Below, piece after piece: positions 2,448-12,736 of a stretch of DNA of 24,457 nt (the stretch's first letter is position 1; the number at the start of each line of letters is the position of its first letter). The position numbers were made by a program, and so were the translations under genes. Location of the stretch: positions 1-24,457 of the IMG/VR virus record IMGVR_UViG_3300027779_000151, one strand, 5' to 3'. This DNA comes from a virus. Under the pieces are notes generated by a model that made no database searches, was not told the origin of the DNA, and was given only the letters and a program-made list of their open reading frames with translations.

Positions 2448-2593
2448 CTTCAGAAATAAAAAGAGATATTTGGTGTGACGGATGTGGAGTCATGATGATA
2501 GATAGTTCGGTAAAAAAGGATTTGATTAGTAAAACAATGAGGCCAACGGTTGAATGTAAAATGTGTAGAAAATGGGAATGGGATGTTAGATGA
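2444..2593 (+). CDS. Mini zinc-ribbon protein (49 aa)
   Basis: A 49-residue reading frame bounded by ATG at 2444 and TGA at 2591-2593. It contains CDGCG (residues 11-15) and CKMC (38-41), a complete four-cysteine ribbon with a 23-residue spacer, and ends in a W-rich tail (KWEWDVR). Its start overlaps the upstream stop and its stop overlaps the next start (ATGA), exactly as for the longer genes here, which supports it as real. A small nucleic-acid-binding or protein-docking role is inferred. Confidence 0.7.
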   Translation: MTSEIKRDIWCDGCGVMMIDSSVKKDLISKTMRPTVECKMCRKWEWDVR

Positions 2594-3093
2594 TTAGTGA
2601 AGATGAAGTAATTTGGGCAATAAGAACATTTACCTCATTGAGGATAGGCGGAAGATGGCACGTTAATGGGGTTGGCGTGTATGAACGAACAGGTGTTGAT
2701 GAACTAACATTGGTTGAGATACATCAAGGTAAGCCTAAGATATTAGATTACAATGAAATGTCATTATTTGAATCGCATGATCACTTACAATTACTTGCTG
2801 AAGAGTTAGGTTGGAAGATGATACAAAGCGTAGAAAAGGCATGGGATTATGATGGGAAATTAATGAATATCCCTGATGAGTTAATTGGTAGGGCCGCAGT
2901 TTGCGATGCTGATTGTGGCGTGATAGTTAGGGTTGAACCTGCTGAATCTGGTACAGTCCATGCTTTGATTGAAAATGGTATTTGTCCTTATTGTAATGAA
3001 AAAGGATTTACTAAGAAATGGAATGATGTATGGGTGGTTGTAGATGATACAGGTGCTAGATTAAAGATGGCTAAGAAAGAGGAGGAGGAGTGA
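2590..3093 (+). CDS. Protein with zinc-binding domain (167 aa)
   Basis: The start is fixed by the ATGA overlap with the mini zinc ribbon upstream. Residues 1-75 look like a small alpha/beta domain (helix 4-16, strands around 25-45, helix 64-75). Residues 105-135 hold CDADC and CPYC, a probable zinc site (C105, C109, C132, C135), then a short strand pair and an acidic, lysine-rich tail ending in EEEE. The tail codons GAGGAGGAG also supply the ribosome binding site of the next gene. I do not recognise the family. Confidence 0.75.
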   Translation: MISEDEVIWAIRTFTSLRIGGRWHVNGVGVYERTGVDELTLVEIHQGKPKILDYNEMSLFESHDHLQLLAEELGWKMIQSVEKAWDYDGKLMNIPDELIGRAAVCDADCGVIVRVEPAESGTVHALIENGICPYCNEKGFTKKWNDVWVVVDDTGARLKMAKKEEEE

Positions 3094-3380
3094 TGGCTCG
3101 TAAGGCCCATGATTACAATAACACTCTTCACAATACAATTCAAACTGGATGTCACATAGGAGAAGAATTACACGTTGTTACTACTAATGCTTTTGATAAT
3201 AGAGTATTGAATTTGAGAATGTATAAAGTAATGCCATCTAAGACTGGATATACAGGATATACTAAAGTAGGATTTTGGCTAACAAAAAATGAAGCAAGAG
3301 AATTAAGAGATGCTTTATCTGAAGTTATTGAAAACGAATCAGCATGGGATGTCATTGACAGTAATCCAATAAAGGAATGA
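3093..3380 (+). CDS. Small beta-rich protein, possible PC4-like fold (95 aa)
   Basis: The start at ATG 3093 overlaps the upstream TGA by one base and follows a very strong GGAGGAGGAG. The N-terminus is polar with histidines; the middle (residues 46-72) has strands with RMYKVMPS and KVGFWLT, followed by a helix (73-88, NEARELRDALSEVIE). This strand-strand-helix pattern loosely recalls PC4-type single-strand-binding transcription coactivators, but the match is only a pattern and I would not name it. The stop overlaps the next gene by four bases. Confidence 0.65.
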   Translation: MARKAHDYNNTLHNTIQTGCHIGEELHVVTTNAFDNRVLNLRMYKVMPSKTGYTGYTKVGFWLTKNEARELRDALSEVIENESAWDVIDSNPIKE

Positions 3381-3745
3381 AAAATATGAAGGAAGATATT
3401 GATGCAATCTGTGCTAACCTCATTGATAATTCTGAACCAGTATCTGAGATGGTATTTGATTTGTTTAATAGAACAAAAAAGTTTGCTAATAGGCGACCAT
3501 CTTCATTGATGGCAGATTGCATCTATATTATTATGAATGCAATCGGAAATCCTGTGTCAATAACATTACTATCATACATCATAAAAGAAACATTAGAATC
3601 TAAGAAAACAATACGAGCGATGCAAGTATATCCTAATACCGCAGATAAATGGTATATGACTCCAAGAGGGAAGAAAGCAATATTAGAAGTAATTGAAGAA
3701 GAAGATATTTACAATAGTGTTATGAGATTTCAAAATAAGGGATAA
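3377..3745 (+). CDS. TFB-like single cyclin-fold protein (122 aa)
   Basis: Residues 6-85 read like one cyclin repeat of archaeal TFB/TFIIB: an opening helix, then RRPSSLMADCIYIIMNAIG (39-57), matching the family's arginine-(any residue)-P-S helix and its IYIA helix, then a helix and KKTIR (76-80) in the place of the family's TIR end. A full TFB has an N-terminal zinc ribbon and two such repeats (about 300 residues); here there is one repeat and no ribbon. The C-terminal part (90-122) is an acidic helical tail. It may alter host promoter use or act as a decoy; that is inference. A start at codon 4 (3386) is also possible. A generic winged-helix protein is the main alternative. Confidence 0.6.
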   Translation: MKNMKEDIDAICANLIDNSEPVSEMVFDLFNRTKKFANRRPSSLMADCIYIIMNAIGNPVSITLLSYIIKETLESKKTIRAMQVYPNTADKWYMTPRGKKAILEVIEEEDIYNSVMRFQNKG

Positions 3746-3750
3746 TTACA

Positions 3751-5175
3751 ATGTTATTATATCGTTCTCTTGCAGAATCATGGAGAGTTATGTCAGAGTA
3801 CCGTGTAAGAAATCGAGGAGAAATTGTAGCAAATTGTATTAGAGCATCTATGCAAGATGCATGGTCAATCATATCATTTTTTTATCCTAAAGATGGTATT
3901 GGGAATAGACTCAGTGATGAAGATTTTAGAGAAATATTTTATCTTTTAACTGATGCCTATCCTGATGAAATAGAAAGCAATCCAGATCCAATTGATTTGT
4001 TAGTATCACTATCAGAAACAGAAGTTACAACAGGTCATGCTAAATCAATAGTAAGTCGTTTGCATAATATATTAGAGGCGGAAGATAATGAAGTAAGGTC
4101 ATGGCTGATAAGGCCGTTATTTGAAACAATAAATAAGCGTGATTTACATCCATTGTTTTTGAGGATGAGCGTTAGGGCTTCACCAATTAGGAGAAGAGAT
4201 GCAATCATGGCATTGGCTATGGCATATGAACATCCATTTCACCATGTGAGGACATCAGTTAATTTGTTAGGATTAAAAAACACAGTAAGAGATTTATCAT
4301 TGAATGGATTTAATTATTCTAAAATAAGGCCATTATGTTTTCAACCTTTGATGATTCCAATTCCTGTATTAGTAAAGTCACCAAGCGCAGTTACCTTCAC
4401 CAAATGTTATGCAGAGGAGGTCGAAGGAACATGGGTTACGTTACATCATGATAAGAAGAAAACCATGGTATTCGATTCATCTGGGGCAAACATACCTGAG
4501 ATAGAAGATATCAGATCTTGGGCCTTGAATATTAAATTACTAGATGGAGTGTATTTGTGCGATTATGCTGAGCGAAGGGATAATTCATTTTTATTAATTG
4601 ATTGGCTCAATCCTACTGATTCAAAATTGACTTATGCATCGAGAAGAAAACGATTTGATACATTGCCATCATGGGCAATCAAACCAATGATTGAAATGGA
4701 TTTACCTTATCATCCAGAATCATCTCCTTCACCATATTTACTTCGTAATGCTAGAGGCATACTAACTTATGAAAATACTATTGAAGAAGTCGTGTTACTT
4801 AATCCTCAAGTCAAATATAGAATATTAAGAGTGTTATCTGGTAAAGTAGTAAAATCAAACAGTGGAGGAGTTCCTACTATATTATGGAAATTAGGAGCAA
4901 GAGATGGATTTGATTATTATCCTGTATGTGAGTTAGAAAGTCCACATGATTTCTTAAAGGATATTAGGACATTTTTATCTCCATTCAAAAGACTTATTGG
5001 GGAGGCAATAAAAATTACATCTCCATTATTCGTTCAAGTAAATGTAATCACATCAGGGTGGGGCGACTTAGGATGCTATCTAAAAGGAGAGATAATCAAA
5101 ATCGAACCTAATGCAGGTATCTCTGATTGTTTAGGGGTGGAGGAACTAGGTTATGTCGAAGATGAGTCAGAGTGA
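3751..5175 (+). CDS. ATP-dependent DNA-ligase-fold protein with substituted active site
   Basis: The domain order and length match an archaeal ATP-dependent DNA ligase, though a usual one is 550-600 residues. Residues 36-190 resemble the N-terminal DNA-binding domain (SVRASPIRRRDAIMALAMAY at 140-159 lies where families show an R-I-G-V helix). FQPLM (197-201) is the RPMLA-like entry to the nucleotidyltransferase domain. The motif I site reads AEEVEG (221-226) where active ligases have K-any-D-G, so the lysine that takes AMP is glutamate 223. The motif with D-G-E reads LDGVY (264-268), losing its glutamate. The motif III region FLLIDWLN (280-287) and a following ERR-like helix are kept. Motif IV reads ARGIL (334-338). 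Residues 355-455 resemble the OB fold. I infer a ligase pseudoenzyme or scaffold. Alignment to ligase profiles would settle it. Confidence 0.75.
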   Translation: MLLYRSLAESWRVMSEYRVRNRGEIVANCIRASMQDAWSIISFFYPKDGIGNRLSDEDFREIFYLLTDAYPDEIESNPDPIDLLVSLSETEVTTGHAKSIVSRLHNILEAEDNEVRSWLIRPLFETINKRDLHPLFLRMSVRASPIRRRDAIMALAMAYEHPFHHVRTSVNLLGLKNTVRDLSLNGFNYSKIRPLCFQPLMIPIPVLVKSPSAVTFTKCYAEEVEGTWVTLHHDKKKTMVFDSSGANIPEIEDIRSWALNIKLLDGVYLCDYAERRDNSFLLIDWLNPTDSKLTYASRRKRFDTLPSWAIKPMIEMDLPYHPESSPSPYLLRNARGILTYENTIEEVVLLNPQVKYRILRVLSGKVVKSNSGGVPTILWKLGARDGFDYYPVCELESPHDFLKDIRTFLSPFKRLIGEAIKITSPLFVQVNVITSGWGDLGCYLKGEIIKIEPNAGISDCLGVEELGYVEDESE

Positions 5176-5509
5176 CAAAGACATCGTAATCTTGGCGTGT
5201 ACGGTCAGAGGGGGCATAAAATGCCTAAGAACGTCTGACAGGGCGTGTGGGTACACGATACGACCCGAACTATGGTTTAACGTCATGAATGGGGGATCTA
5301 GTCGTGCATTAATTGTAAAGGAAATACCTGTAAAAAATAAGTATTCAAATGTAGATGAGATAAAATCTATATTAAGCATAATAGAAGGCTTTGAAGAATT
5401 ATCTCCATCCCATGATGGATTGATGGAGGTTAAAAAATATAATGGAGTAATCAAACAACCTAAAACACATAGAGAAGTTACAGAACTACTTAGATTACTA
5501 GCCGAGTAG
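5153..5509 (+). CDS. Protein of unknown function (118 aa)
   Basis: The start at ATG 5153 lies inside the end of the ligase-like gene, 23 bases of overlap, with GGAGGAA about 7-8 bases upstream; a second ATG at 5162 is in the same frame. The protein starts with a beta strand (DIVILAC, residues 9-15) followed by a basic, cysteine-containing loop, a strand (ALIVKEIPV, 52-60) and helices at 66-78 and 106-118. No catalytic motif is seen. Base composition of its first 120 bases (more G and C, CGTACG-type words) differs from the AT-rich neighbours, which may reflect constraint from the overlap or a different origin. Confidence 0.75.
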   Translation: MSKMSQSDKDIVILACTVRGGIKCLRTSDRACGYTIRPELWFNVMNGGSSRALIVKEIPVKNKYSNVDEIKSILSIIEGFEELSPSHDGLMEVKKYNGVIKQPKTHREVTELLRLLAE

Positions 5510-5574: not shown

Positions 5575-6900
5575 ATGAGTGAACTAAGATTGAAAGAGAT
5601 TGCAGACAAAACAGGTAAAACGATAGATGAGGTAGCGAAAGAATTTTCTACCTTTATACAGGAGTCATTTTCTGACGCTTGGAAAGATTCTCAAGGAATT
5701 TTATCCAACATAGAAGATGAAGATTTCTTCTTCTTTTTAGAAGCATATGATATACGAGAAATCAGGAAGAGAGGAAGTGGTGGCGGAAAGGGCCAAGATT
5801 ATGTTGGTATGGTTGTAGGTCTAAAAGGGACTAGAGATATCATGGCTAATCAGAGAAAGGTTGCTCAAGAATCAGCAGAAATTGATTTGGCTTCTACATT
5901 GAGGTATGGTATAACTCCATATCAAAATAAAGATATTACTGTTCAAGTAGGTAGAGTGCATTATGGAGATGGACATTGGATGGTATCTAATGGTTCTGAT
6001 CAAATAGTACATCGTGCTGAAGGTAAAGAAAATGAGTTACCTAAGTGGGTTATTGCAGTTCCAAATAAAAACTTCAATATTGCATTACTTGGTGCTAAAG
6101 GGCCAAAGGTTGCATATTCATACAAGAAGGAATATTATGTTGTAGTTAATACCCCTCAATCATTCTTGAAAGATGGGCCTTTACCAATGACAATATTAGA
6201 ATGTAATTTTGATGCGGCGGAAGTGGATTTGAAAATGAATGTGCCAATTAAATTTAAGGCAGATACAGATAAGTCATATTTATTTCCAGATGAGAATATC
6301 CTTACTGCAAATCAAATATATCCTGAATACGGATTGAATTGGGTTGATGATGCATACCTGTCTGTTGCAGAACAAATGTTCTCTCCTGACCAGTATTTAT
6401 CTCAATGCGTACCATTTGTTTCTGACCTATCTCAATTACATGATTATCATGATGCTAATCTAAAGACGAGTCCAAAGAATGGTAAAGAATATGGTCAAGT
6501 AGTTTGTATCAAAGGTGTTGTAGATTATATGGATCATGATGGTAAAGAAAATGCATATGCTGATGGTGGTTTCAATCATAATATGACTGTAAGTAGTCAA
6601 AGTCTTAGAAGAGAAAATAGTGATGCTAAATTATGGATAAAAGTATCGGCATCATTGAAGAATGATTACAATGCATTCAAGGGATTGAATGATGGTACAT
6701 GGACAGACTTTACATCTGGCACTCAAGTCTTTGTAGTCGTATCTACAAGCACATGGGAAAATCAAATGGGTGATATTAATCTTAACTTAGATGCTCATAA
6801 TGTTTGGCCTGTTCCAAGAAGAATCTTTTGGGCTGAAAAACCATCAGATGAGAGTAATGACCTAGGTGGCCTTGGAGGATTTAGGAGTGGTGGGCAATGA
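5575..6900 (+). CDS. RPA-like single-stranded DNA-binding protein
   Basis: I read this as a virus-encoded SSB. Residues 1-65 form an acidic helical N-terminal domain. From the glycine-rich linker (SGGGKG, about 68-73) begins an OB-like strand pattern (DYVGMVVGLKGTRD) of the kind seen in archaeal RPA proteins, and a second comes at about 304-415 (GQVVCIKGVVDYMDHDGKE). The C-terminus ends in an acidic residue cluster then LGGLGGFRSGG, a flexible tail as in many SSBs that recruit partner proteins. Supporting context is strong: it is followed, with a 4-base ATGA overlap, by a Sak4-like recombinase ATPase, a common pairing in viruses. The individual OB folds are weakly conserved, so the call rests on pattern plus context. 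Confidence 0.65.
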   Translation: MSELRLKEIADKTGKTIDEVAKEFSTFIQESFSDAWKDSQGILSNIEDEDFFFFLEAYDIREIRKRGSGGGKGQDYVGMVVGLKGTRDIMANQRKVAQESAEIDLASTLRYGITPYQNKDITVQVGRVHYGDGHWMVSNGSDQIVHRAEGKENELPKWVIAVPNKNFNIALLGAKGPKVAYSYKKEYYVVVNTPQSFLKDGPLPMTILECNFDAAEVDLKMNVPIKFKADTDKSYLFPDENILTANQIYPEYGLNWVDDAYLSVAEQMFSPDQYLSQCVPFVSDLSQLHDYHDANLKTSPKNGKEYGQVVCIKGVVDYMDHDGKENAYADGGFNHNMTVSSQSLRRENSDAKLWIKVSASLKNDYNAFKGLNDGTWTDFTSGTQVFVVVSTSTWENQMGDINLNLDAHNVWPVPRRIFWAEKPSDESNDLGGLGGFRSGGQ

Positions 6901-8123
6901 GTGGTTTCTTTGACAAATTTGAAAAGAAAGATACTGATGCAGTAATTCCTATTACCCCTGCGCCTCCTGTTGCAGTTTCTACTAATATATATGGAGAAAA
7001 ATTAGACTCAGAAAATAATCCTCCTTTTGATCCTAGTAAAAGTTTAGAGGAACAAGGAAACTTACCCTATGGGAATGCGGGACTGAAAAATGATACTCAT
7101 CCTATGACTCTTAAGCCGGAACCAATGCCACAACAGAATAGAGGAGAACAACCCTCGCCCATTAAAAAATCATCATCATGGATGCCCGCATCACAAAATC
7201 CCGCTTGGTTACAAATCAATGCGGCTAGAGCAAAGAACTTGTTAGATGAAAAGACTTACTATGTTCTTATGGGAATCGCAGGGCCACCAAAATCCGGTAA
7301 GTCTGGAAGCGTATTAGATAGCCTTACTGATGAAGAAAAGGACAACGGTGCAGAGATACATCATATTGATTTTGACTTAGGTGGAGAGACTACCAAAGCC
7401 GCACATCATAGTGGAACAAATAACATCGTAGTGTTGAATCCATGGGTGATTAATAGAAACCCAAGTAGAGTGCCTTATGATTTCCCTGCTACATATCAGA
7501 GAACCATTGATTATCTAAGGGCGGCAGTAGAAATGGCCGATGCTCAATTAGTGTATTTCAATGAACATGGAGTAATGCCTAGCCCTTATCTTAAGACAGT
7601 AGTTTTCGATGGTGCAGATCATTGGTTAAACATCTGTGAGACTGTAATGAAAGTGGATGACCTAAAACTAGGCCCAGATGGAATTGCAGTAGCAGGAAGG
7701 GATGCTACAACCAAAATTGGAAGGTTTAATTGGAACATCCGTAAGAACCGATATAACTCTGCTTTGACAGTATTACAAGAATTGTGTCGAAGAGGTATTC
7801 ATTGTTACCTCATCACTCATATGAAAACTGCATATGATTCTACTGGCAATGAGATACTCGGTGCAGAATCTCCTCATTGGTTGAAAGATACAGAAGGATG
7901 GCTACAACAAATGGCAATCTTTGAAGTTAATGAAGAACGTGATGAAAGAGGAGAATTAACCGGAGTTCTTAACTCCTATTCAATAGTAACGCAAAATAGG
8001 ACTAGCCTAAAATCTAGTGGCAAAATTCACATATTCCGTCGAGACAAAGAGGGTGGAGAATGGTTTGGATGGAAAGGACTTAGAGATGGTTCTTTAGAGC
8101 ATCCTGATGACCATGCTGAATAA
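6897..8123 (+). CDS. Sak4/RadA-like P-loop ATPase (recombinase)
   Basis: Residues 1-100 are a low-complexity, proline- and serine-rich N-terminal region. The ATPase core starts at about 105: GPPKSGKS (129-136) is Walker A, LKTVVFDGAD (232-241) is Walker B, and CYLITHMK (303-310) fits the strand with a sensor residue. The region between holds DFDLGGETT (158-166), and a conserved-looking RFNWNIRKNRYNSAL (276-290) precedes the last helix. This layout fits the AAA_24/Sak4 group of RecA-fold proteins that help single-strand annealing in viral recombination. RadA itself has an N-terminal helix-hairpin-helix that is absent here. Position directly after the SSB and before a RecB-type nuclease supports a recombination role. 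Confidence 0.75.
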   Translation: MSGFFDKFEKKDTDAVIPITPAPPVAVSTNIYGEKLDSENNPPFDPSKSLEEQGNLPYGNAGLKNDTHPMTLKPEPMPQQNRGEQPSPIKKSSSWMPASQNPAWLQINAARAKNLLDEKTYYVLMGIAGPPKSGKSGSVLDSLTDEEKDNGAEIHHIDFDLGGETTKAAHHSGTNNIVVLNPWVINRNPSRVPYDFPATYQRTIDYLRAAVEMADAQLVYFNEHGVMPSPYLKTVVFDGADHWLNICETVMKVDDLKLGPDGIAVAGRDATTKIGRFNWNIRKNRYNSALTVLQELCRRGIHCYLITHMKTAYDSTGNEILGAESPHWLKDTEGWLQQMAIFEVNEERDERGELTGVLNSYSIVTQNRTSLKSSGKIHIFRRDKEGGEWFGWKGLRDGSLEHPDDHAE

Positions 8124-8147: not shown

Positions 8148-9107
8148 ATGGTTATGGACGACTTAATGACAATTAGATCTGGTGCGGCATATGATGTACC
8201 TAATCGTGAAGGATTGAAGTCATCGTACCAATGGCATCCGGGGATGAAAGAGGACATAATATTAAGAGTGTCTAAATCATCTCTGGGTGCGTTCAAGTTT
8301 TGTTCCCAACAGTATTTTATCAAATACCCATTAAGAGTTAGAGAACCCTCTAATGATGATATGACGCGAGGGAGTAATGTTCATGATGCGGTTGAAGATT
8401 TTTATAATTCAGTAAGTGTGGGATATGCCGCATCTATGAAATCATATGGGTTCGATAATGTTGTTAAATATTTTAACGAATTTATCCCTACTGAAAATCC
8501 ACAGAGAGGGTTATTCACTTTGGGAGAAGATGAACATCTTAGGAGGTATATGCATGTTGAAGCACAGAGGTTCATGGATTGTGAAGATCCACAATATTTC
8601 TTACCAATAGTGAATGAAGTAACCTTAGATGCGGTTGTAGAGATAGAGGGGGTATTAGTCCACCTAACAGGAATTGTTGATAGGATGTTTGCAGATGAAT
8701 CAGGCAGGTGTCACATACATGAATTAAAAACTGGCATGTGGAAAAACAAACCTGTTAAATGGAATTCCATGAGAGAGGAAATGGCTTACTATGTGTATCT
8801 TTTAGATGAAGCAGAACATGATACTCTTGGCAATCTAAGTGCAGAGTATTGGGGTTGGGATCATACAGGAGGAGATTCACTTTTTAGAGGCAGAGAACCA
8901 GTAACAACAAAACCAATAGAGAATATGATGGATTCATTAAAAAGATTAGTTAGGACTCACAAGATGTATAAGGGCGATAACAATGGAAAGCATTTTCCTT
9001 TAATAGATAAATACATGATAAAAAGTGTTTGTGAGCCATGGTGTAGAATCAAGGGATTCTGTCCACGTTATGATAAGGTATTGTGGCCATATGGGGAGGA
9101 AGAGTAA
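8148..9107 (+). CDS. RecB/Cas4-type PD-(D/E)XK nuclease with Fe-S cluster
   Basis: The start is ATG 8148 (ATG 8154 is an alternative); a GGGG motif precedes it. The motifs are textbook: RGSNVHDAVEDF (74-85) carries the histidine of the RecB family; GIVDRM (175-180) has the metal-binding aspartate; HELKTG (191-196) is the E-X-K catalytic pair; MREEMAYYVYLL (208-219) is the QXXXY-type motif with Q replaced by E. Cysteine 52 in the N-terminal helix together with C295, C299 and C305 match the split four-cysteine iron-sulfur cluster of AddB and Cas4 nucleases. The enzyme probably resects double-strand ends to make single strands for the SSB and Sak4-like proteins encoded just before it. Cas4 adjoining CRISPR genes is unlikely because no cas gene or array is near. 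Confidence 0.85.
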   Translation: MVMDDLMTIRSGAAYDVPNREGLKSSYQWHPGMKEDIILRVSKSSLGAFKFCSQQYFIKYPLRVREPSNDDMTRGSNVHDAVEDFYNSVSVGYAASMKSYGFDNVVKYFNEFIPTENPQRGLFTLGEDEHLRRYMHVEAQRFMDCEDPQYFLPIVNEVTLDAVVEIEGVLVHLTGIVDRMFADESGRCHIHELKTGMWKNKPVKWNSMREEMAYYVYLLDEAEHDTLGNLSAEYWGWDHTGGDSLFRGREPVTTKPIENMMDSLKRLVRTHKMYKGDNNGKHFPLIDKYMIKSVCEPWCRIKGFCPRYDKVLWPYGEEE

Positions 9108-10208
9108 ATGTCTCATTTGTTTGAACATTTTCCTAGAGAAGTAAACATGAGAACTAGGAAAGTAGTCAAGTCTATGTATGAACTTCAAAAGTACATAGAT
9201 AATACAAATGGAAAAGACAATTTGACTACTACGGTGTATGGATTTAGAAATTTAAAACCAAAGGGAAATAGATGCGAATACAATACCGCAATCATCCCTC
9301 ATTTTGTAATAGACTTAGATAAGGGCAGAGCGGAGTTAGAAGGCATTGATACAGAATTAGGAGCAGGAACTAGATGCACTCAAGATACCTTGAATCTTGC
9401 AATATATCTGAAAGAGAATGATATTCGACATGCAATATGGATGAGTGGTGGCGGCTACCATATTTGGGTAATGTTAGACCAAGTATATGATATCCCTTCT
9501 AATGAGATGAGTAATCTTTTATTCTCTGGAAGGGCCATGATTAACAAATGGATTAATGACATGGATTTAATTACTGTTGATCCTGTTGTATCATTTAGAC
9601 CTGATAGGCATATAAGAATTCCAAATACTTACAATTCAAAAAGAAAACTTTGGAGCATCCCCCTTTCAATAGATGATTTATGTAAAGGATGGGAAGCAGT
9701 AAAAGTGATGGCAGGAAATCCATCTGGCGGGATGAAAACCTGTGGCAACAATGGCTTGAGTATTGACATAGTTGAATTTGATGAAAATAATCCTCACTTA
9801 GGCATGACTAAAATGTTTCAAAATTTTGATGCTGAAGATATCTCAATCAAGATGGATAATGTAGAAGGCATTCCTATGTTACCTTGTTTACAAGCGGCGT
9901 GTTGTGATAAAGGAAGTAACCCTCCTCACATATCTAGGTCTTATCTGATGATGTATCTATTAGACTATTATAGAGGCTTTGCGAGGCCACCGAGTTCTAC
10001 TAAAGCCCCAATCGCAGAAATTATCAATAAAGCACATTCCTTTATCTATTCTTTGGAGTGGTCTGACTACAAACCTAAGATTACACAAGAAATGTTAGTT
10101 CACGGAGCAAGCAGAGAGTACCTAACACCATCATGTCCTACAATTTATAGAGAGGGGTTATGTATTGGCCGTTGCCCATTCTATGATGGTAAGGGGGTCG
10201 GAACATGA
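9108..10208 (+). CDS. Archaeal-type primase: PriS catalytic domain fused to PriL Fe-S domain
   Basis: The N-terminal two thirds carry the archaeo-eukaryotic primase motifs: FVIDLDKG (66-73) with the two metal-binding aspartates (D69, D71), WMSGGGYHIW (111-120) with the nucleotide-binding histidine, and D158 followed by RHIRIPNTYNSK (167-178), the third motif region. The C-terminal third resembles the PriL iron-sulfur domain: PC (259-260), CC (265-266), a PPHISR start of a helical domain (272-277), PSC (341-343), GLC (350-352) and C356, with spacing like the four cysteines of PriL. In most archaea PriS and PriL are separate genes; a single 366-residue chain is compact. It lies between the nuclease and ERCC4 nuclease genes and would prime viral DNA synthesis. 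GGGGAGGAAGAG before the ATG fixes the start. Confidence 0.85.
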   Translation: MSHLFEHFPREVNMRTRKVVKSMYELQKYIDNTNGKDNLTTTVYGFRNLKPKGNRCEYNTAIIPHFVIDLDKGRAELEGIDTELGAGTRCTQDTLNLAIYLKENDIRHAIWMSGGGYHIWVMLDQVYDIPSNEMSNLLFSGRAMINKWINDMDLITVDPVVSFRPDRHIRIPNTYNSKRKLWSIPLSIDDLCKGWEAVKVMAGNPSGGMKTCGNNGLSIDIVEFDENNPHLGMTKMFQNFDAEDISIKMDNVEGIPMLPCLQAACCDKGSNPPHISRSYLMMYLLDYYRGFARPPSSTKAPIAEIINKAHSFIYSLEWSDYKPKITQEMLVHGASREYLTPSCPTIYREGLCIGRCPFYDGKGVGT

Positions 10209-10567: not shown

Positions 10568-11272
10568 ATGTCAAAAATTTTATTTATAGATCATCGTGAA
10601 AAATCAGGATTAGAAGAATTGGTAAAAAAATATTGTATCAAAAAAGGATTATTATTTCAAGAACGTGAAAATCTAATTACAGATTATGCTTTTGCAAATA
10701 TTGGTATAGAAGCAAAAAGCATTCCTGATTTTATGAGTAGTATGTATTCAGGGCATCTTGACAGGCAATTACAAAATCTTGATGATAATTATAATCAAGT
10801 CATACTTATTGTTTGGGGAACTATTGATAGTTACATATCCAAAGCAAGAAGAGGTGGGAAAAAATTATCGTTTCCCAAAGTGTTTGCAGGATATACGGGA
10901 GGACTAGCAAGATATTCTAATGATTATGATGCAAACATAATGACATTTCCAGATAAATCTACGGCGGCTCGTTTTATTTGTAAAAGATTTGAAAAACACG
11001 GAACACTGGGGAAATCATCTACATACAGGCTCTTGAGAAAGACCGCTTCTGAAGATAGAAGGATAGATATTTTGAGGGCGGCGGGTTGTAGTGAAATAAT
11101 AGCAAAAAGGCTTTTAGAAAACTTTGGCTCAATCAGCGAAATTACGTCATTATCTCCGGCAGAGTTACAAAGTATAGATGGGCTTGGAAAAATACGCACT
11201 CAACGAATACTGCATTGTCTCAACAGTGAAGATGCAGTACCTGATGAGAAAGTAAAAATGTCTAGGGCATGA
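10568..11272 (+). CDS. XPF/Mus81/Hef-type ERCC4 nuclease with helix-hairpin-helix
   Basis: The ERCC4 nuclease core is clear: IDHREKSG (7-14) with the first aspartate and the R-E pair, TDY (38-40) in place of G-D-Y, and EAKSIPDFMSSMYSGHL (48-64), where the family motif E-R-K-X3-D reads E48-A49-K50 with D54. The catalytic E, K and D are kept while the usual arginine is alanine. After a linker, residues 166-213 hold a tandem helix-hairpin-helix (AAGCSEIIAKRLLENFGSI, then IDGLGKIRTQRI), the (HhH)2 domain that binds branched DNA. There is no helicase domain, so it is the short nuclease form as in archaeal XPF. It probably cuts branched or flap intermediates during replication or recombination. Confidence 0.9.
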   Translation: MSKILFIDHREKSGLEELVKKYCIKKGLLFQERENLITDYAFANIGIEAKSIPDFMSSMYSGHLDRQLQNLDDNYNQVILIVWGTIDSYISKARRGGKKLSFPKVFAGYTGGLARYSNDYDANIMTFPDKSTAARFICKRFEKHGTLGKSSTYRLLRKTASEDRRIDILRAAGCSEIIAKRLLENFGSISEITSLSPAELQSIDGLGKIRTQRILHCLNSEDAVPDEKVKMSRA

Positions 11273-11281
11273 GGAAATAGT

Positions 11282-12736
11282 ATGATATTAAAACCAAACA
11301 CAAATGTAGAAAAAGAAAGACGATGGGATGATTACGCATTGGTGAATGCACCTTATGAAGGTAGTCAATATATAAGACAATATATTGAAAGATTTAACAC
11401 AGTATCTTACTTTAATGAGTATGCAGGGCTTCTATCTTATTTCTTTATTATAGGTCAGGTTTTGTGTCCCTATGTTAGAGTACCCATTCATGGTTCTTAC
11501 ATAGATTGTAGGCTTCATGTGTTTTGGATTCAACAATCCAGAACAGGTAAATCAATTGCGTATGAATTTACGGCTAAAGTTTTGAAAGAGTGTGGAGTAG
11601 AGACTGAGAAATTTAGTGCAGGTTCAGATGCTAAGTTAATTGGAACAGTCGATCAGAAGCCTGTTTTAGACGATAAAGGCAATGCCACAGGAGAGATGGA
11701 GAATATCGTTATACCGGGAATACTCAATGGCTACAAGACTCTTTTATTTGATGAAGGGAGTGTATTGTTGAATGACCAAAAAGCGTATTTTAGCGAGAAG
11801 ATTCTTTATCTCCAACAAGCAATGGCACCAATAGGTTCAGAGACTAATGTACTGGTTAAGCATCTTAAGGGAGGAACCGTATATACTCCATCAGGAGTGT
11901 CATTATGGGCAACCACTTTCCCTCCCAAGGACATCATGGCTCATGTACTTGAGAAGGGCTTCTTTCAACGTGTATTTCTATATCAAAATGATGTCAATAT
12001 CGAGACTAGGCAAACCACGAGTGAGCATAGAATATCTGGTGCATATATTCCTGTACCTGACCAAGTTTGGTCATATGAAATGCTTGCTAAAACTATACTA
12101 GAGATAAAATCAGATATTAAAGAAAGGCTGTTAGAGGCATGTGCGCTTAGTGAAGAAGATTATGATGCTTTAGATGATTCTTCCAAAGAAGATTTGGCCG
12201 TGAAATACTCCTATTCTTTATTCTCACCCGGCCCCTCCTATCATGCGGCATTGCTTTCAGCAGTAGATGATTATTATGCCTTGATAAAGGGTATTCAAGA
12301 TGTCACCATAAGAGAAACCGCTATGAGTTTCTTACCTAATGTAGAAAATTATACTATGATTTTTTCTAATTTAATTGCCGCTACAATGAGAACATCTGTT
12401 ATATCAGGAGATCATGTAATGATGGCAACAGAAATTATCTATGACAATCTACATAACTTAATTATTTGGCTTGAAAACAAACAAGATTACAGAGCAAGTA
12501 AGAAAAGAGATTTGGCTATTAGAGATTGGAAAGGAGCATACAACAAATGTCACAAAGTTATGCATGATAGATTACACAGAGAAGTAGTTAGGAAATCAGA
12601 ATTAGAACAAATATATTCAAATTTAAATCAAGTAAGTGTGAAAACTGCAAAGAGAAGAATGAAGGATTTAATAGATGCCAATTTAGCAAAAATAATTAAA
12701 GAAGGTAGAAATGCATTTATCATGTTGGAGGTATAA
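11282..12736 (+). CDS. AAA+/helicase-like ATPase with C-terminal winged helix
   Basis: The P-loop reads WIQQSRTGKS (82-91), with GKS kept and the first glycine of a usual Walker A replaced by Q. KTLLFDEGS (152-160) is Walker B with catalytic D-E. SLWATTFPP (207-215) fits a sensor 1 strand and GFFQRVFLY (226-234) an arginine-finger region, giving an order close to MCM or to the DUF3987-type helicase-primase-associated ATPases of phages. Residues 425-484 resemble a winged helix (LEQIYSNLNQVSVKTAKRRM, then a wing with AKIIKEGRNAF). It is the best candidate in the window for the replicative helicase. GAGGAA precedes the ATG. The specific family is uncertain because overall similarity is low. Confidence 0.65.
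   Translation: MILKPNTNVEKERRWDDYALVNAPYEGSQYIRQYIERFNTVSYFNEYAGLLSYFFIIGQVLCPYVRVPIHGSYIDCRLHVFWIQQSRTGKSIAYEFTAKVLKECGVETEKFSAGSDAKLIGTVDQKPVLDDKGNATGEMENIVIPGILNGYKTLLFDEGSVLLNDQKAYFSEKILYLQQAMAPIGSETNVLVKHLKGGTVYTPSGVSLWATTFPPKDIMAHVLEKGFFQRVFLYQNDVNIETRQTTSEHRISGAYIPVPDQVWSYEMLAKTILEIKSDIKERLLEACALSEEDYDALDDSSKEDLAVKYSYSLFSPGPSYHAALLSAVDDYYALIKGIQDVTIRETAMSFLPNVENYTMIFSNLIAATMRTSVISGDHVMMATEIIYDNLHNLIIWLENKQDYRASKKRDLAIRDWKGAYNKCHKVMHDRLHREVVRKSELEQIYSNLNQVSVKTAKRRMKDLIDANLAKIIKEGRNAFIMLEV

Follow-up and report, generated by a model that had tools for sequence, protein, structure and literature searches.

What would a virus gain from a protein that keeps the build of a DNA ligase but has lost the lysine at its catalytic centre? 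The question is raised by one gene in the window analysed here, whose 24,457 bases make up an entire virus record. The gene lies within a run of same-strand genes, and the initial annotation had read its product, from the letters alone, as a ligase-fold protein selected for a non-enzymatic role.

3751..5175, + strand: 474-aa protein with an inactive DNA-ligase fold (begins with ATG; coordinates include the stop codon; profile-profile match, AF2 and Foldseek)

The gene is carried by uncultivated tailed viruses of archaea, which together form a large group. Close relatives of the 474-aa protein come from uncultivated viral contigs only, and a scan of cellular genome contigs returned no homologue.

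A family profile reveals ligase ancestry

Searches with the single sequence (Pfam, PHROGs, NCBIfam, PDB sequences and phage records) gave no usable ligase match and alone would have pointed to ‘no ligase’; the relationship is visible only by family profile. Family HMMs likewise found nothing significant in Pfam, PHROGs, NCBIfam or the PDB. The family did not reach the curated cut-offs of the Pfam models DNA_ligase_A_N, DNA_ligase_A_M, NAD ligase or RNA ligase, the best score being E = 0.096 for DNA_ligase_A_N with one member.

A thin profile of 12 close relatives compared with true ligases at P = 0.12 (about 0.1 across the first comparisons), and the register of this alignment already held through motif I. 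These non-significant values were overcome by adding deeper relatives, which were fetched through the neighbouring primase and helicase genes of related contigs and in which an HMM of the first family located a member at the expected place. The final family has 26 members with 33-66% identity to the window protein, near-identical rows having been removed. As reference we used 13 true ligases, namely those of Pfu, T. sibiricus and Sso (verified by comparison with the PDB) and ten from plasmid records. With hhalign, the 26-member family matched these 13 ligases at a probability of 86-87% and P = 3.6e-6 to 5.5e-6 over 460-468 columns. The match is colinear from end to end, pairing residues 2-474 with profile columns 42-587 (score 55, P = 5.5e-6), and a second ligase alignment from an independent run of the comparison tool gave 83% and P = 9.2e-6. 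In the controls, the highest score among 200 column or block shuffles of the ligase profile was 29.8; the reversed profiles scored 15.7 and 18.6, and none of the unrelated families from these viruses exceeded 22. The profile search that had been proposed thus returned a ligase match once the 26-member family was used, and the claim that the ligase domain order can be traced nearly end to end is borne out by the score of 55 against at most 29.8 in the controls, in agreement with AF2 and Foldseek. We regard the ligase ancestry of the family as established.

Among individual homologues, TTG or GTG starts are frequent (L003, L004, L009, L010 and L011). In L002:7159-7170 the expected start is CTG, with no in-frame ATG, GTG or TTG just upstream, leaving the true start uncertain. 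The homologue at G012:2785-4231 (L013/L028) is split into two frames with a break near residue 79, either a viral frameshift or a sequencing error.

Predicted structure and domains

Structure prediction and comparison, also suggested at the outset, led to the same family. AF2 run on four close relatives gave a pLDDT of 37, and on the 26-row family alignment, which contains no ligase sequence, 84.3. All of the best 50 listed Foldseek matches of this model in the PDB are archaeal or eukaryotic ATP-dependent DNA ligases, the best being 6wbo (E = 8.4e-18), and the named viral structural matches are mostly DNA ligases or capping enzymes. Global TM-scores against ligases are low, about 0.38, which means that the likeness lies in the set and order of domains and in no single fixed arrangement. 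By homology and fold, these are the helical DNA-binding, nucleotidyltransferase and OB domains of an archaeal-type ligase, in this order:

3751..4320, + strand: entirely helical N-terminal domain, residues 1-190, corresponding to the DNA-binding domain of ligases (predicted helices and alignment)
4321..4815, + strand: nucleotidyltransferase-like domain with degenerate motifs, residues 191-355 (borders approximate)
4816..5172, + strand: OB-like domain at the C-terminus, residues 356-474, without the motif VI residues (beta strands of the model; border approximate)

In the helical domain, arginines R5, R12, R53, R60, R116, R138 and R148 are invariant or nearly so. A counterpart of the DNA-binding-domain Arg-x-Gly (Pfu R163/G165) is not claimed, as its mapping is ambiguous: hhalign places it at A143/P145, while by eye R138-M-S140 fits better.

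Could an unrelated helical and beta protein simply resemble ligase motifs by chance? The empty single-sequence and family-HMM searches (Pfam, PHROGs, NCBIfam, PDB) and the low global TM-score would fit such a coincidence. An hhalign score of 55, with controls at 29.8 or below, and a Foldseek E of 8e-18 with ligases alone as top matches speak so strongly against it that we give it almost no credence.

Catalytic positions are lost throughout the family

A functional ATP-dependent ligase carries K-x-D-G with the nucleophilic lysine in motif I, an acidic residue in motif III, E-G-x-x-x-K in motif IV, K-x-K in motif V and R-x-D-K in motif VI; a Glu upstream of the catalytic lysine contacts the nucleotide. 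When the family is aligned onto Pfu ligase, the motif I lysine and the functional residues of motifs III, IV, V and VI are missing. Four degenerate motifs can be located in the window:

4414..4428, + strand: degenerate motif I, E222-E-V-E-G226 (site without lysine in 26/26)
4543..4566, + strand: degenerate motif III strand, D265-G-V-Y-L-C-D-Y272 (all that remains is G266 and the strand, which is present in the model)
4729..4746, + strand: degenerate motif IV, S327-P-Y-L-L-R332 (no Glu; Arg in 14 members and Trp in 12 at the place of Lys)
4789..4806, + strand: degenerate motif V, V347-V-L-L-N-P352 where ligases have WLKIKP (neither lysine remains)

In motif I, Pfu K249 falls in a one-residue deletion of the family alignment, and none of the 26 gathered homologues has a lysine at position 223. 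The site had been described as ExEG: E223-V-E-G without a lysine does hold for the window, but E223 itself is unconserved (E in 2/26, otherwise I, T, S, P, N, R, Y or H), and the pattern actually conserved is E222-x-[V/P]-[E/Q]-G226. Around the site, Pfu E247 corresponds to E222 (E in 23/26) and D251 to E225 (E in 24 members, Q in 2); R254 is replaced by W, R, F or Y, and G252 and H258 are kept in every member as G226 and H232. Motif III of Pfu, E297-G298-E299, falls in an alignment gap; the matching family strand reads xGI[YF]L, and in the window the D-G-E motif does read D265-G-V, as reported. The motif IIIa segment is shortened, with F312 unaligned and its Phe gone, and the counterparts of Pfu D340 and R357 are kept (26/26 each). 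In motif IV, E398 is variable, G399 becomes P, A or V, and K403 becomes R (14) or W (12); in motif V, W418 is mostly V, K420 is L in 23 and K422 is N in 17; and R531/D533 of motif VI are not retained. The initial annotation was therefore right that motif IV is changed and that several catalytic residues are replaced, and the loss goes beyond its list to motif V (WLKIK to VVLLN), the IIIa Phe and motif VI. Across all members, scaffold positions are retained and catalytic positions lost, and since the motif I lysine is absent in 26/26, loss of catalysis is a property of the whole family.

One way to save an activity is to let the nucleophile migrate, for example to K311, the sole lysine invariant in all 26 members, or to assume another chemistry; the nucleotide-contacting Glu, kept as E222 in 23/26, would suit an active nucleotidyltransferase or ligase of this kind. 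However, K311 lines up (hhalign output, by eye) with a basic position of genuine ligases that lies outside the catalytic motifs, and the family has also lost the Glu and Lys of motif IV, the two lysines of motif V, and motif VI. We consider a retained activity very unlikely.

A conserved place in a replication and recombination module

Relatives share a gene order that begins with an Spt4-like ORF, two small ORFs, the ligase-like gene, a 118-aa ORF and a 441-aa gene, and continues with a Sak4/RadA-like ATPase, a PD-(D/E)XK nuclease, a probable AEP primase, a small ORF, a Hef/XPF nuclease and a P-loop helicase-like gene; the virion genes lie on the opposite strand. The ligase-like gene had been placed upstream of the replication cassette. 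It is better described as lying near the start of a conserved replication and recombination module. In the window, the members of this module are as follows:

2590..3093, + strand: 167-aa module ORF with a weak Spt4-like stretch
3377..3745, + strand: 122-aa ORF immediately upstream of the ligase-like gene, conserved in the module
5153..5509, + strand: 118-aa ORF, sharing 23 bases with the 3' end of the ligase-like gene
5575..6900, + strand: 441-aa module protein
6897..8123, + strand: Sak4/RadA-like ATPase (weak PHROG match)
8148..9107, + strand: PD-(D/E)XK nuclease
9108..10208, + strand: probable archaeo-eukaryotic primase (weak PriS match; D-L-D, SGGGxH and R-I-P-N motifs by eye)
10568..11272, + strand: Hef/XPF (ERCC4-HhH) nuclease
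11282..12736, + strand: P-loop helicase-like protein (the G009 homologue weakly matches a PHROG helicase; partly by eye)

A homologue of the 118-aa ORF is found in the same place wherever the relatives reach far enough. Its product is a possible, translationally coupled partner of the ligase-like protein. As a practical aside, the protein of 9108-10208 (366 aa) is conserved and primase-like yet missed by Pfam, and it is a very good hook for retrieving members of this virus group.

Purifying selection and a PolB-encoding sister group

Between close pairs, the ligase-like gene shows dN/dS of 0.02-0.08, so it is under strong purifying selection and is not decaying. Every related locus that extends 9 kb or more beyond the primase on the upstream side carries it (32/32). 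Both results support the early suggestion that the fold is selected for a non-enzymatic role, in the sense of ‘selected’ and not ‘decaying’.

A sister group (contigs L104, L106, L109, L113, L120 and L121, and also L100, L101, L105, L107 and L108) has a primase about 35% identical, encodes PolB, and contains PCNA and clamp-loader genes as read by eye. A protein of approximately 490 aa sits in the same position in 11/11 of its loci. It is colinear with the family at P = 0.0008 to 0.004 and matches ligases more weakly (P = 0.009), and it also lacks K-x-D-G, as in YAEVISHPRRYLHI. With moderate confidence, we take it to be the same gene, further diverged. PF00136 (PolB) matched in all four sister-group contigs tested. 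In 11 records of the window's own group, most of which may be fragments, there was no PF00136 match and hence no sign of the virus-encoded family B DNA polymerase that characterizes Magrovirales.

A second ligase-like domain in the head module

Might an intact ligase be encoded elsewhere in these genomes? Neither PF01653 (NAD ligase) nor PF09414 (RNA ligase) matched anywhere in 14 long contigs, and the first 13 records likewise gave no PF04675 or PF01653 match. Besides the ligase-like gene, PF01068 found a single other place, a stretch in a head-module reading frame of 1113-1956 codons that is carried by L014, L015 and L157-L162 (e.g. G009:64995-68336; G022 near 72243-72530). In the relative G009 this frame adjoins the head-maturation protease and shares a module with the portal and terminase genes. 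A profile of the domain matches ligases at P = 1.8e-6, and its motif I resembles QK[KM]P[KE]G[EK]R or SVMPEGER (e.g. Q-K-M-P-E-G-K-R), with no conserved lysine. Judging from its sequence, this ligase-nucleotidyltransferase-like domain is probably inactive as well. Its P-E-G-E-R string is reminiscent of distant members of the replication-module family. No intact ligase was thus detected in the long contigs with PF01068, PF04675, PF01653 or PF09414, a result that is not proof of absence, since most records may be fragments.

Proposed non-enzymatic role

The computations yield a ligase fold and domain order, family-wide loss of catalysis, purifying selection and a fixed position in the module. 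Our preferred reading, to which we assign a rough probability of 0.6, is that the protein is an exapted, catalytically dead archaeal-type three-domain ATP-dependent ligase that serves as a non-enzymatic scaffold in replication and recombination. A lysyl-AMP intermediate would not form in such a protein, which would consequently neither activate nor seal nicks and would instead be a structural part of the viral replication and recombination machine. DNA would be brought in, probably through the arginine-rich N-terminal domain, and the likely partners are encoded alongside: the overlapping 118-aa protein, the primase, the helicase, the RadA-like ATPase and the nucleases. In that case, the nicks would have to be sealed by the host ligase. 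The data do not discriminate among the specific roles first suggested for the protein, namely nick binding, end protection, blocking of host ligase and partnership with a clamp loader.

By analogy, the protein may work much as the inactive ligase domain does in A20, the processivity factor of poxviruses. As A20 works with a viral polymerase and the window's group has no PolB match, a strict processivity-factor role would need the host polymerase. The A20-type arrangement, a ligase domain between a UDG-binding N-terminus and a polymerase-binding C-terminus, is not found here, the ligase domains filling all 474 aa. A D4-like uracil glycosylase was considered as an A20-type partner and dropped, with no UDG match in 14 contigs.

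Could the dead ligase instead act directly on DNA ends? It might enclose nicks, gaps or genome ends, shield them from host ligase and repair, and hold viral intermediates open for recombination or packaging. The full clamp architecture, including the helical DNA-binding domain with its conserved arginines, is retained, and recombination nucleases and a RadA-like ATPase are neighbours. However, the residues of motifs IIIa, V and VI are lost too, and the nucleotidyltransferase domain is net acidic, with a family mean of -7.9 compared with +3 in the Pfu enzyme. In overall acidity the protein is close to the average for proteins of this virus, and it exceeds the ligases of Pfu, Tsib and Sso as well as the co-encoded primase and ERCC4 nuclease. 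The acidity lends no special support to DNA clamping and makes a nick clamp a little weaker as an idea; on balance we find a guard of nicks and ends unlikely.

A ligase-like look could also serve deception: as a decoy, the protein would compete for the host ligase's partners, the sliding clamp or others, and redirect the host replication machinery, which would suit a virus group without a polymerase match of its own. Yet no PCNA-binding motif is conserved across the family, and universal retention in the replication module suits a core part better than a host-range factor, so that antagonism of host factors seems quite improbable to us. A PCNA-binding motif had been considered as a family feature in its own right and was rejected: the pattern occurs in only 10/26 members, at two different sites, and in none of the sister group.

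Relation to known ligases and viral systems

How does the scaffold that we propose compare with known systems? With archaeal and eukaryotic ligases (Pfu 2cfm, Sso 2hiv, Thermococcus 6wbo, LIG1) the family shares domain order, predicted fold and scaffold residues; it differs from them in lacking the catalytic lysine and other motif residues, in its shorter motif IIIa and in that no active member was found. Ligase folds of prokaryotic viruses, such as those of HGTV-1 and phages, also appear among the structural matches and are annotated as DNA ligases. Human LIG4 still promotes repair when catalytically inactive (PMC9638927), which likewise represents a ligase body aiding DNA transactions without catalysis. 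However, LIG4 is normally an active enzyme, whereas no active form was found in the viral family.

The closest parallel comes from vaccinia virus, where the middle domain of A20 is an inactive DNA ligase inside the polymerase holoenzyme (PMC11142717). Inactive ligase folds in viral replication are thus already known from poxviruses. Both cases involve a viral, inactive ligase fold (catalytic subdomain plus OB) with a structural role in DNA replication, a role that for the present family we infer. A20 itself lacks the ligase-type N-terminal DNA-binding domain, and its flanks bind the D4 glycosylase and the polymerase. The archaeal-virus family, in contrast, keeps the helical domain, lacks the A20 flanks, occurs without a detected uracil-DNA glycosylase and belongs to unrelated tailed viruses. 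What is new here is the host domain, the kept N-terminal ligase domain without A20 flanks, the wide viral spread and the presence of another degenerate copy within the head module. The proposed A20-like use in archaeal viruses has apparently evolved separately. If our reading is correct, it adds to A20 an archaeal-virus case of a replication enzyme kept for its shape over its chemistry, and it makes a testable claim on replication, namely that these viruses have no sealing activity of their own, depend on the host for ligase and use a structural hub within the replication module.

An ATP-dependent DNA ligase has been reported in magroviruses (Magrovirales; PMC10768690, PMC12999244, PMC10160649). 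Like the viruses studied here, these are marine archaeal tailed viruses with two opposed gene modules, an ERCC4 nuclease and a primase, and the PolB-encoding sister group resembles them. In the sister-group contigs examined, neither the protein at the position of the ligase-like gene nor the head-module domain has a conserved catalytic lysine. It is tempting to speculate, at somewhat less than even odds, that an order-level assemblage of archaeal tailed viruses has for very long carried a dead full-length ligase as a core non-enzymatic factor in replication or recombination, plus a second, inactivated domain in a large head-module protein; inactive ligase folds would then be a recurrent solution of viruses, arrived at separately in poxviruses and in archaeal viruses, and the magrovirus ‘ligase’ may often be inactive. 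If true, this would span viruses both with and without their own polymerase. It also advises caution, as the label ‘ATP-dependent DNA ligase’ in related viruses may name inactive proteins.

A further gene of these viruses deserves mention. G009:5442-7025 and its sister-group homologues encode a chaperonin that reads as an archaeal thermosome. A search of cellular genomes for the virus host by chaperonin similarity gave no match, and the phage collection gave only distant, GroEL-like matches to the G009 protein; the G009 chaperonin and the replication genes both read as archaeal.
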